NCBI RefSeq assembly: GCF_023008545.1
Contig: NZ_CP095397.1
Span: 1,922,001 to 1,986,000, forward strand
Length of the DNA stretch: 64,000 bases
DNA from: Natribaculum luteum
GTDB taxonomy: Archaea > Halobacteriota > Halobacteria > Halobacteriales > Natrialbaceae
Direction of reading: 5' to 3'
Numbering within the stretch: position 1 is the first letter of the stretch; every line of letters begins with the position of its first letter. The notes under the pieces were generated by a model that did not search any database, was not told the origin of the DNA, and worked only from the letters and a program-made list of their open reading frames with translations. Below, in pieces: positions 11,166-15,289 of this stretch. The position numbers were made by a program, and so were the translations under genes.

Positions 11166-11649
11166 CTAACCCAACTGGGCAGGCGTGTAGTCGCCGTTCA
11201 CGTTAAACGCCCCTGACTTGAGGGCCAGTTGACTGGTGGCCCATCCACCGCGAGATTTCTGCCCGCGATGGGCATACCCGCCCCGCAGTGTCGGTTGGCA
11301 ATGTTCTTTGCGGCGTTGTAATCGCTATGCAACTCTTTACCGCCCTTTAGGAACTCAAACTTATCGCCATCCCGATTGTCCCGATGAGTGAATCCACACC
11401 CCGAGTGACTGCACCACTGACTCGTGTATTGTGGTGCAACGTCGTCCACCTCGATACCGTATCGTCCACCTCGATACCGTATTCTTCGGCCTTGTATTCG
11501 ACGTGCCGTTGGAGTTCGCGGAACGCCCACTGCTGGAACTTTGAAGCGTTCGAGTTTCGGGTTCTCGAACGCAATCGCCGTGCAATCGTTCCCCACGGCC
11601 TCACGGATGATGGCCTTCGAGACACGGTGGAGATAGTCTGCGGGCAAAG
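11166..11649 (-). pseudogene. tnpB: Decayed TnpB (IS200/IS605-type) remnant
   Basis: The C-terminal half of a TnpB-like protein read on the minus strand: ADYLHRVSKAIIREAV, TAIAFENPKLERF, then in another frame SKFQQWAFRELQRHVEY and AEEYGIEVDD, then QYTSQWCSHSGCGFTHRDNR (zinc-finger half) and SDYNAAKNIANRH (the RuvC-III aspartate region), and in a third frame GWATSQLALKSG and VNGDYTPAQLG before TAG at 11168-11166. At least three frame changes are needed. One is caused by a tandem duplication of 20 bp (11441-11460 and 11461-11480, one mismatch). The N-terminal half and both element ends are absent. It is unrelated in position to the intact TnpB at 52690. Confidence 0.85.
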
Positions 11650-11726: not shown

Positions 11727-12461
11727 TCACTCCTCGCTCGAGTCGTCGGCCTCCCGGCCGGTCAGGCTCGGCAGATTCGGGTCGCGGTTGGGGTTGCGGC
11801 CGTACGCCGGCAGTGCATCGTCGTCCAGTTGCTCTTGTAGCACCCGGCGGAGCCGGTTGAGGTTCGTGATGTCGAGGCCGTGCTGAGCGGCGAGGTGCTT
11901 GAACGTGCTCTCGTCGGTAACGTCGTGTGCCTTGTACTCTGCGAACAGTTCGTCCATCCGGTCGGGCGACAGCGCGCTTACGTCGACGTCGTCCAGCCCG
12001 AAGTACGCGCGCCGGTCGACGTCGACGACGTGGCGGATCACCACCAGCGCGACCTTGGGGATCGCCCGCTGGCTGCCGAAGGCAGTGAGGTCGATCTCGT
12101 CCATGATCCCCAGCGCGAGGTCTCGCTGCCACGGCGTCAGGTCCAGGGCGTTACACAGCGCCTGGGTCGTTCGCAGCCGATCGAGGTGGTGGGCTCGCGC
12201 GCTGTGGCCGGCGGTCGCCGTGTGCTGTTCGTCGTGGAGGCGACGGACGCTCTCCGAGAGGTCCGCCTCGGGCGACTCCGCGCGGCCGATGACCGTCGCG
12301 CTGGGCGTGACGACGCCCCACCGGCGAACCGTCGCGTCGCGCTGGGCCGCCGCTCGCGAGATCGAACCTGCACCGGGGCGGGTCTCGAGTCGTCGTTCAC
12401 CGTCGTCGGTCGGTACTCGCCGTCCGAGCGTCGCCCCCGACGAAACGCCGTCACCACTCAT
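11727..12461 (-). CDS. DNA-directed RNA polymerase subunit epsilon (haloarchaeal type)
   Basis: A 244-residue protein matching the haloarchaeal family annotated as RNA polymerase subunit epsilon: RRWGVVTPSATVIGRAESP, SVRRLHDEQHTATAGHSARA, LCNALDLTPWQRDLALGIMD and FGSQRAIPKVALVVIRHVV. The helical core resembles a TFB cyclin repeat. It is believed to be an accessory subunit of the transcription apparatus; direct function is poorly characterised. The first about 45 residues are variable, and no internal ATG offers a better start. The ATG is 92 bp from the first 45-bp repeat, and the gene is divergent from the array. Name confidence is high, mechanistic confidence low. Confidence 0.85.
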   Translation of the reverse strand: MSGDGVSSGATLGRRVPTDDGERRLETRPGAGSISRAAAQRDATVRRWGVVTPSATVIGRAESPEADLSESVRRLHDEQHTATAGHSARAHHLDRLRTTQALCNALDLTPWQRDLALGIMDEIDLTAFGSQRAIPKVALVVIRHVVDVDRRAYFGLDDVDVSALSPDRMDELFAEYKAHDVTDESTFKHLAAQHGLDITNLNRLRRVLQEQLDDDALPAYGRNPNRDPNLPSLTGREADDSSEE

Positions 12462-12552
12462 ACAAGTGGTGGCTCACACGTAGAGACGGATAAACCCATC
12501 CCACGGAGCTGCGATGCGATAGCACGGCTCTCGAGTCGAGAACGAGCGCGGC

Positions 12553-12597
12553 GAAAATCCCTTCGTAGCTCTACCTTGTCACCAGAACCACTTAAAG
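12553..12597 (+). repeat. 45-bp array repeat, copy 1
   Basis: Begins GAAAATCCCTTCGTAGCT and ends CACCAGAACCACTTAAAG. First of six same-strand copies. The 102-bp segment that follows is unrelated to the other inter-repeat segments. The end CACTTAAAG resembles a haloarchaeal TATA element. Confidence 0.95.
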
Positions 12598-12699
12598 CCG
12601 ACAAGACAGGTCGTGGATACCACACTGGACGCCGAAGTGGGATCAGCTGCTCGAGGGAAGTCCGGAAAGCGACACGCTCGGTGAAAAACTACTCGGTGA

Positions 12700-12744
12700 G
12701 AAACCCCGTCTATAGCACTACCTTGTGACCAGAACCACTTAAAG
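12700..12744 (+). repeat. 45-bp array repeat, copy 2 (most divergent)
   Basis: Same length and phase as copy 1, but with several substitutions in the first 20 bases and one G in ACCTTGTGACC. The last 16 bases, CCAGAACCACTTAAAG, are identical to the other copies, so the 3' part is the more constrained half. The 86-bp segment after it opens with a short hairpin, GTCGGA ... TCCGAC. Confidence 0.93.
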
Positions 12745-12830
12745 AAAGTCGGATCCAGGCGGTCCGACGCGAAGCCGCCGTCGACCGCGCGACCCGGAGA
12801 AAGCACGGGCTCGCAGACGAGATCGCCGTC

Positions 12831-12875
12831 GAAAATCCCTTCGTAGCTTCACCTTGTCACCAGAACCACTTAAAG
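12831..12875 (+). repeat. 45-bp array repeat, copy 3
   Basis: Differs from copy 1 only at the two variable bases before ACCTTGTCACC (TC instead of CT). Followed by a 79-bp unique segment. Confidence 0.95.
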
Positions 12876-12954
12876 CGATGAGCGACGGACTGACCCCGTG
12901 GTCGACTGCTCGACTAACGGTCGTCGCGTCGCCACCCCGAAGCCAGTCCCGTGC

Positions 12955-12999
12955 GAAAATCCCTTCGTAGCTCCACCTTGTCACCAGAACCACTTAAAG
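12955..12999 (+). repeat. 45-bp array repeat, copy 4
   Basis: Differs from copy 1 only at the two variable bases before ACCTTGTCACC (CC). The sequence after it opens with a perfect hairpin GCCGAC ATC GTCGGC and then leads, after 126 bp, to the Tat-lipoprotein gene. Confidence 0.95.
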
Positions 13000-13125
13000 A
13001 AGGCCGACATCGTCGGCTGGCACACCGACGCCGGTTCGGCCAGCGCGTCCGTCACTGAGCGAGCCACTAGGTGACTGCACATATACATACCGTCACTCAT
13101 TGGACCGACGGCGACACGCGTAGCC

Positions 13126-13950
13126 ATGAGCGATCGATCGCCGCACGGACGCAGACTGGCACCGACCCGACGGACACTGCTCGCCGGCGCGAGTCTCACG
13201 CTGGCCGCGCTGGCGGGCTGTCTCGGGGACGACAAAGGAGACGCCACGCCGAACGACCGCGACGACGAGGAAAACGTCACCCAGGAGAACGACGAGGACT
13301 GTACACTCGAGACTCGGACCGAGACGGAACTCGTCGTCGACGGCGAGGCGCTTCTCGAGGGTGGTGACGAGGTAACCCGAGAGTTCACCGCAGAGGATGG
13401 TGACACCGTCCACGTCGACGTCTCGGCATCCGACCGTCAGAAGATCCGCCTCGAGATCGACGCGCCGGACGGCGAGACCGTCTACAGTGACGAAGGCGGG
13501 TCGTTCGAGACGCGACAGACGTTCGAGACTGGCGGGTCCGGGACGGTTCGCGTTACGAACCTCGGAGAGCGCACGGAGCCCGAACGCGACGAACTGGCGA
13601 ACGATCGGATGACCGTCCCCGCCGGGAAAATGCTCGCCCCTCAGTTCGACCTCGAGGCGGGCGAAACCCTCGAGTATCGCGTCCGGACGGTCGACGGTGC
13701 ACGACCCACGCTCCGGATCGAATCCGCCGACGGTGCCGTCCTCCGGGATCACGCCGTCGCCTCGGTCATCGACGACGCGTTCACTGCCGAAGAGGGCGGC
13801 CAGTACTACGTTTACGTCGAGAACACCGCGTCGATCACGTCGGGAGTGTGGGACTATACCTTTGCGCGGGTTATCGACGTCCCGCTCCCGACGACGGCGT
13901 CGCTGACCGCCGAACGCGAGTACGAGACCGAAGTCGAAGTCTGCGAGTGA
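13126..13950 (+). CDS. Tat-exported lipoprotein of unknown function
   Basis: A 274-residue secreted protein. The N-terminus has a twin-arginine signal PTRRTLLAGASLTLAALAGC with Arg15-Arg16 and a lipobox LAGC giving lipid attachment at Cys32, the standard haloarchaeal Tat lipoprotein arrangement. It is followed by an acidic linker (DDKGDATPNDRDDEENVTQE) and a beta-rich body with two similar halves, each with E-x-R/V-type strands (VHVDVSASDRQKIRLEIDAP and LEYRVRTVDGARPTLRIESA), suggesting duplicated carbohydrate-binding-like or pre-peptidase C-terminal-like sandwiches. It lies between repeat copies 4 and 5 of the 45-bp array, with a TATA-like CATATACATA at 13078-13087. Function unknown. Confidence 0.82.
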   Translation: MSDRSPHGRRLAPTRRTLLAGASLTLAALAGCLGDDKGDATPNDRDDEENVTQENDEDCTLETRTETELVVDGEALLEGGDEVTREFTAEDGDTVHVDVSASDRQKIRLEIDAPDGETVYSDEGGSFETRQTFETGGSGTVRVTNLGERTEPERDELANDRMTVPAGKMLAPQFDLEAGETLEYRVRTVDGARPTLRIESADGAVLRDHAVASVIDDAFTAEEGGQYYVYVENTASITSGVWDYTFARVIDVPLPTTASLTAEREYETEVEVCE

Positions 13951-13989
13951 GCGCCGGACGGATCGAAACCTCTTCGTTCGAACTGCCGC

Positions 13990-14034
13990 GAAAATCCCTT
14001 CGTAGCTTCACCTTGTCACCAGAACCACTTAAAG
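13990..14034 (+). repeat. 45-bp array repeat, copy 5
   Basis: Starts 39 bp after the stop codon of the lipoprotein gene and is identical to copy 3 throughout the 45 bases. Followed by an 86-bp unique segment. Confidence 0.95.
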
Positions 14035-14120
14035 GACGAGCGGGCAAGTCGGCGTCGACGAAACGACGAGAGAGACGGACCAACGGCGACAGAGTAGCCA
14101 CTACGACGAGCAGACCCGAC

Positions 14121-14166
14121 GAAAATTCCCTTCGTAGCTTTACCTTGTCACCAGAACCACTTAAAG
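14121..14166 (+). repeat. 45-bp array repeat, copy 6
   Basis: One extra T near its start (GAAAATTCCC) makes this copy 46 bp; otherwise it is like copy 5 (TT at the variable dinucleotide). It is the last copy, 184 bp before the mptA start. Confidence 0.95.
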
Positions 14167-14350
14167 AGCGAGACGGGGGAGATTCGATCGCGTCCCCGCT
14201 GGTCCACTCCGTGAACCCGGCAGGATCGACAGCGAGTGCGGGTGACACGGCCGGTGGAGACGCCTCTCGAGTCGGTCGATTCGACGATCACGCCAGACAA
14301 AACGTCGGCTTCCGAAAGCCCTAATCGCGCGCTACTCCGAGTACGTGGCA

Positions 14351-15289
14351 ATGAGTAAGCAACTGCCGGACGTGCAGGCGACTGCACCCGACGTGACCGT
14401 CGGACTGAGCCAGGTCGGCGTCACTGGCGTCGAAAAGCTCGTCAAAATCGCCCGTGAGGGCAAGCGACCGATCGTCCTGATGGCCGAGTTCGAGGTGTTC
14501 GTCGACCTTCCCTCCTGGCGGAAAGGCGCGGACATGAGCCGGAACATGGAGGTCATCGACGAGATTCTCGAGGAAGCCACCCGAGAGGAGGCCTACCGCG
14601 TCGAGGACGTCTGTGGCGACGCCGCCGAACGGCTACTCGAGAAACACGACTACACGACGCGCGCTGAAGTGTCGATGGAAGCCGAGTTCGTCCGACGCGA
14701 GGAGACGCCCGCGACTGACCGAGAGACCCAGTACAGCGTCGACCTCATCGCCTCGGCGACGGCGACCGACGAGGGGACCCGCGAGGAGATCGGTGCCCGC
14801 GTCGTCGGCATGACCGTCTGCCCGTGCTCGCAGGGGATGTCTGCCGCCCGTGCGAAACAGAAACTCGAGGATCTCGAGGTCGACGAGGAGACGATCACCG
14901 AGTTTTTAGACGAGGTTCCCCAGCCCGGCCACTCCCAGCGCGGTCACGCGACGCTCACCGTGGAGGCAAACGGTGATCCCGAGGTCGACCTGAACGACGT
15001 GATCGACGTCGCCCGCGACGCCATGAGCGCGCGGATCTACAACCTCGCGAAGCGCCCCGACGAGGACCACATGACCTTCGAGGCCCACAGCGACGCGAAG
15101 TTCGTCGAAGACTGCGTCCGGTCGATGGCGGAAGGCGTCGTCGAGCAGTTCGACGAACTGCCGGACGACGCCGTGATCACGATGAAACAGTCCAACGACG
15201 AGTCGATCCACCAGCACAACGCCCACGCCGAGCGCGTCGTCGAGATGGGGACGCTGCGCGAGGAGGTCAACGGCGACCTCGAGGCGTAG
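14351..15289 (+). CDS. mptA: GTP cyclohydrolase IV (MptA)
   Basis: MptA is the Fe(II)-dependent archaeal GTP cyclohydrolase that opens the pterin pathway toward folate-type or methanopterin-type cofactors and can also supply the precursor of preQ0 for archaeosine. The 312-residue protein shows the family signature [17 protein letters not shown] (Cys157, Cys159), then [13 protein letters not shown] with His194 and His199, and [16 protein letters not shown] near the C-terminus. GTG 14345 is a possible start two codons upstream; ATG 14351 is chosen. Transcription is toward a convergent membrane-protein gene whose end overlaps mptA by 23 bp. Placed in the same window as tgtA and arcS, it could feed archaeosine synthesis. 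Confidence 0.94.

Follow-up and report, generated by a model that had tools for sequence, protein, structure and literature searches.

The 64,000-bp stretch of Natribaculum luteum DNA analysed here (the window) contains a short sequence that recurs six times on the same strand between 12553 and 14166 (+), and the question is what such an array is for. A sequence search of the window recovered all six copies of the original prediction at their positions on the + strand, separated by 102, 86, 79 and 86 bp and by one gap of 990 bp, which contains a lipoprotein-like gene of 274 aa (Table 1). The common end CCAGAACCACTTAAAG is indeed present in all six copies, and copy 2 diverges mainly in its first half, as had been noted. 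Allowing up to 3 mismatches, a genome-wide search gave six matches only, exactly the array copies, with zero matches on the opposite strand and zero for a reversed control pattern in the same genome; the array is therefore not a product of chance. Direct repeats on one strand with unrelated spacers are reminiscent of CRISPR arrays, but here the spacers are 79-102 bp long, the 990-bp gap holds a gene and each repeat has a TATA-like box at its end. The array is bordered or interrupted by the genes for RNA polymerase subunit epsilon (gene X), the lipoprotein-like protein and MptA, and none of the flanking genes scanned is a cas gene. The earlier dismissal of a standard CRISPR is supported.

Table 1. 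Positions of the repeated element, the DNA between its copies and the neighbouring genes in the window.
Feature	Position	Strand	Remark
Gene X, 244 aa	11727..12461	-	epsilon by RefSeq names of relatives; divergent from the array
Element copy 1	12553..12597	+	nearest the epsilon gene and divergent from it
Inter-element DNA 1	12598..12699	.	unconserved, unstructured; transcribed DNA if copy 1 acts as a promoter
Element copy 2	12700..12744	+	upstream half CGTCTATAGCACT
Inter-element DNA 2	12745..12830	.	
Element copy 3	12831..12875	+	
Inter-element DNA 3	12876..12954	.	absent in the sister species, which has one unit fewer
Element copy 4	12955..12999	+	
Lipoprotein-like gene, 274 aa	13126..13950	+	between copies 4 and 5; weak GOLD/PPC-like matches
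Element copy 5	13990..14034	+	
Inter-element DNA, copies 5-6	14035..14120	.	
Element copy 6	14121..14166	+	one extra base
mptA (GTP cyclohydrolase MptA)	14351..15289	+	closes the array on the right in many relatives

In Natribaculum breve (L003), the closest relative with a name that was found, the array at this locus consists of five copies; it lacks unit 3 of the window, and the remaining locus is collinear. The spelling GTCACCAGAACC occurs in five of the six window copies and in most copies of this sister species. Because it is specific to the genus, against GTGACCAGAAGC in most relatives, the copies within a genome appear to evolve in concert. A remnant resembling TnpB/OrfB of the IS200/IS605 type lies just downstream of the epsilon gene (11198-11647, -), where the motif QWCSHSGCG...DYNAAKNIANR was spotted by eye. 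In many relatives the position of the lipoprotein-like gene is taken by a gene for an RlaP-like nucleotidyltransferase (PF10127, RNA repair), which is encoded within the array on the other strand (for example L040:6737-7666 (-), and also in L042, L045, L046, L053, L058 and L074). It was considered as a functional partner and is treated as a mere neighbour because it is missing from the window array and from several others. Three loci (L044, L047 and L051) show a second array away from epsilon, near genes for a CspA-like small protein and a GNAT-like acetyltransferase.

Sequence comparison places gene X in the family of proteins to which RefSeq gives the name RNA polymerase subunit epsilon. Relatives with 56-62% identity from plasmids of Halorussus, Halococcus and Halocatena are annotated as "DNA-directed RNA polymerase subunit epsilon", and the proteins with this name sit on four haloarchaeal plasmids. 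Gene X gave no Pfam or NCBIfam match above cut-off and no PDB sequence match worth naming, and an AlphaFold model based on an input alignment of two near-identical sequences reached a pLDDT of 44. A relationship to TFB was rejected after comparison with the seven TFBs of the same genome (hhalign probability 0.15%), which is a weak negative in view of the shallow epsilon profile. A distant epsilon-like protein of 29% identity is encoded on the 14.6-kb Halarchaeum plasmid pCBA1220-05 (L105:9701-10762, +), which also bears a P4-type primase; similar distant paralogues are present in genomes that have no element.

Epsilon was described in 1983 as a component that enables the Halobacterium polymerase to transcribe native DNA, and native templates are transcribed efficiently by polymerase that contains epsilon but not by polymerase that lacks it (PMC8305020). 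Hbt. salinarum and a subset of the haloarchaea possess this extra subunit (OE_1279R, rpoeps, in Hbt. salinarum; Leffers 1989 and Madon and Zillig 1983, as cited in PMC8305020), the biological relevance of which was termed enigmatic in a 2021 review (PMC8305020). Gene X is likened to the Hbt. salinarum protein through the RefSeq family name of its relatives. The main text of the review links epsilon to no target, DNA element or class of promoter (PMC8305020).

The original prediction missed both the neighbouring epsilon gene and its near-perfect co-occurrence with the element. For a survey of 253 genomes of the order with at least 90% completeness, gene X was scored at E < 1e-35, leaving out G219 (40% identity), the element was scored as TTRTNRCSAGARNNACTTAAA with at most one mismatch, and the two result tables were compared by reading. 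Gene X was found in 131 of these 253 genomes and the element in 134, namely in all 131 with epsilon and in 3 of the 122 without it; the genomes are not independent, and the splits within genera amount to a few independent contrasts. The element-positive genomes that lack epsilon (G180, G241 and G266) have a single match each and are taken as background, since the reversed control pattern matches 7 of the 253 genomes. Genus g42 is split: G069 and G091 have both gene and element, with 6 and 11 element copies of which few lie beside gene X, and G049, G062, G077 and G084 have neither, without an element copy anywhere in the genome. Genus g12 is divided in the same way, G012 and G257 having both and G143 and G176 neither. 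The flanks of the G012 locus are retained in G176 and G143 without epsilon or elements; in G176 they are about 178 bp apart, compared to about 1759 bp in G012, and gene X and both elements are absent.

Where both occur, they are commonly neighbours. A divergent element was found within 400 bp of the start of gene X at 76 of the 81 loci read (median distance 166 bp). In the window, as in relatives, the array faces away from gene X, and it often ends before mptA. Viral contigs that were searched contain neither epsilon nor the element. The link between element and epsilon is strong.

A search of other haloarchaeal genomes with the repeat, proposed along with the original prediction, showed that it is shared by relatives, with repeats kept while spacers turn over. 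The element was present in 30 of 61 related genomes searched, nearly all of one family. Alignment of 321 distinct sites gave the consensus CCCKTCRTAKCTYYACCTTGTGACCAGARGCACTTAAAG, in which, counting the last A of CTTAAA as 0, information extends over about -42 to +10 and falls to zero from +11. Arrays run in one direction, and the spacing of the copies peaks at 110-150 bp. The part AGARNNACTTAAA is nearly invariant across sites, a constancy that has to be read with its use as the search seed in mind. The end that had been likened to a BRE and TATA box is the most constant part; the description as promoter-like is supported, and a promoter is plausible. As regards the haloarchaeal basal promoter, AGAARNNACTTAAA looks like a BRE adjoining a TATA box, and nothing is conserved past +10. 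The element differs in having 30 extra conserved bases upstream, in a TATA part, CTTAAA, that fits the published haloarchaeal consensus TTWT/CGAAA only partially, and in that its copies are not at gene starts. No account of it was found in a literature search that covered few subscription papers, and it is apparently an undescribed promoter-like DNA of 45-50 bp in salt-loving archaea.

The upstream half of the element exists in two types, one CGTAKCT-like and the other CACTAYGA-like. The CACTA type accounts for 36 of 40 sites in about 12 genomes and for 0 of 329 sites elsewhere. These genomes form one clade of the epsilon tree (support 98/91), which cuts across the GTDB families f1, f4, f7 and f8, while most f1 genomes fall in another part of that tree. 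The types differ at -31 to -23 and are nearly the same from -20 to 0 except at -13, the latter similarity being partly built in because this stretch was the search seed. The TTAAA(G/C) end is nearly invariant in both types, with an AGAA-type BRE-like stretch in the expected position. Part of the covariation could reflect joint inheritance, given the physical linkage of epsilon to its nearest array. Of 15 copies far from epsilon, which lie on a different contig or at a distance of hundreds of kilobases, 14 are also of the CACTA type, and this speaks for recognition in trans in addition to linkage.

At the 321 sites, the region past +10 shows no conservation and no start-site signal in the DNA, with no information at +11 to +70. 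In genus g9 (15 species), aligned inter-copy DNA has 57-62% identity compared to 85% for the element, and rises only where mptA begins. Folding of inter-copy RNA gave no signal compared to shuffles (mean z -0.24; window units -0.31 to +2.2). The hairpins reported at the start of the segments after copies 2 and 4 do exist in the sequence, as GTCGGATCC...GGTCCGAC and GCCGACATCGTCGGC, respectively, but for neither segment is folding more stable than in shuffles (z -0.31 and -0.19). An Rfam search of 12000-14500 returned only a chance match to a human lncRNA. Runs of four or more T are depleted (24 versus 38.6 in shuffles), and discrete small RNAs are doubtful because the spacers lack T-run terminators. 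The idea of a set of small-RNA genes with a product for each copy thus found no footing in downstream conservation, structure, Rfam matches or T-runs.

Solitary copies were compared with random intergenic DNA for the presence of a called start codon 15-200 nt downstream, which was found for 0 of 40 copies as against 13% of random positions (P about 0.003). Solitary copies are not placed before coding sequences and are not ordinary mRNA promoters. The rule is not absolute and some copies may drive mRNAs, because a methyltransferase gene begins 87 nt after one annotated copy on a Halococcus plasmid. Solitary copies seemed to favour convergent gene ends, but the excess is not significant (30 of 40 versus 65% of random intergenic positions, P 0.12). 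Among plasmids of Halomontanus, Halococcus and Haladaptatus (L208-L215, H9-H37), several replicons of a single multi-replicon species bear one or two solitary elements each, and the Haladaptatus copies have a common downstream stretch that resembles the 3' end of a small HalOD1-like gene.

In view of the above, we suggest, as an explanation somewhat more probable than not, that the copies are binding or promoter elements of an epsilon-dependent initiation pathway that fires into non-coding DNA. This reading builds on the element itself, its restriction to epsilon genomes, its adjacency to the epsilon gene, the change of type along with epsilon, and a downstream region in which no product is conserved or structured. 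The 3' half, which is constant (SAGARNNACTTAAA), would act as the BRE/TATA box for TFB and TBP, and the switching upstream half (-31 to -23) could be recognised by epsilon or by a co-inherited factor. Epsilon would thereby steer RNA polymerase to the elements, and each copy, if it is indeed a promoter, would give rise to a short non-coding RNA that begins about 20-25 nt downstream. The simplest view of the array beside the epsilon gene is then that its high-affinity sites serve autoregulation or titration; what would count is transcription or the binding of a factor, and not the sequence of the RNA. A more far-reaching version is tentative, and we consider it rather less probable than its opposite. 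In it, epsilon would be a third, dedicated promoter-specificity factor with its own promoters of 45-50 bp, the arrays would fire fast-changing non-coding transcripts, and throughout the haloarchaea the factor and the upstream box would co-evolve.

The main rival keeps the epsilon link and dispenses with transcription. The elements could be non-promoter sites of epsilon or a co-inherited factor, serving as operators for autoregulation, decoys or nucleoid anchors, with the TATA-like end lying within the site. A divergent element beside nearly every epsilon gene, about 50 bp of contiguous conservation that goes far beyond a BRE plus TATA box, and the tight spacing of 110-150 bp would all suit such sites, as would downstream DNA without a conserved product, start-site signal, terminator or RNA structure. 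However, TTAAA(G/C) is as nearly invariant in both types as a TATA box would be, the AGAA-type BRE-like stretch is well placed, the whole array faces away from epsilon, an orientation that a pure binding site does not need, and epsilon is described as an RNA polymerase subunit (PMC8305020). We regard this explanation as possible but on the unlikely side.

Tandem small-RNA genes with a common promoter and individually functional products would also explain a promoter-like element, window spacers of 79-102 bp and solitary copies that face non-coding DNA. This becomes improbable with spacers that retain about 60% identity within one genus where the elements retain 85%, and with the folding, Rfam and T-run results given above. 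The least probable option, to which we give very little weight, is that of recombination or mobile elements (integron-like cassettes, MITEs or plasmid-maintenance sites) that hitchhike with the epsilon gene. The original prediction had offered a cassette array as its alternative, and it is true that units come and go, that epsilon and array can be present or absent as a single block, that relatives of epsilon occur on plasmids, and that single copies are found on the Halomontanus, Halococcus and Haladaptatus plasmids. But gene maps of about 80 loci, made for the relatives' genomes with a simple reading-frame caller, show no integrase among the genes annotated beside the arrays and no integrase or transposase consistently there, and neither inverted ends that are conserved nor duplicated target sites came to light. 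The strict orientation away from epsilon, an upstream half that follows the epsilon clade even at distant copies, and viral contigs without element or epsilon likewise disagree with mobility.

Alternative promoter specificity is familiar from bacterial sigma factors with their cognate promoters and from the multiple TFB and TBP proteins of haloarchaea. An epsilon-dependent pathway would resemble these systems in that epsilon and the element co-occur and change together and in that copies adjoin the factor's own gene. It would differ in that epsilon shows no relationship to TFB by profile comparison and most of its putative targets are non-coding tandem arrays and not gene promoters. Found in every epsilon genome surveyed and essentially nowhere else, situated beside the gene and changing with it, the element is a concrete candidate target for epsilon and may reveal the purpose of a subunit that has been an orphan for 40 years. 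If this is true, archaea would possess, besides TBP and TFB, a further factor that sets the specificity of transcription initiation.
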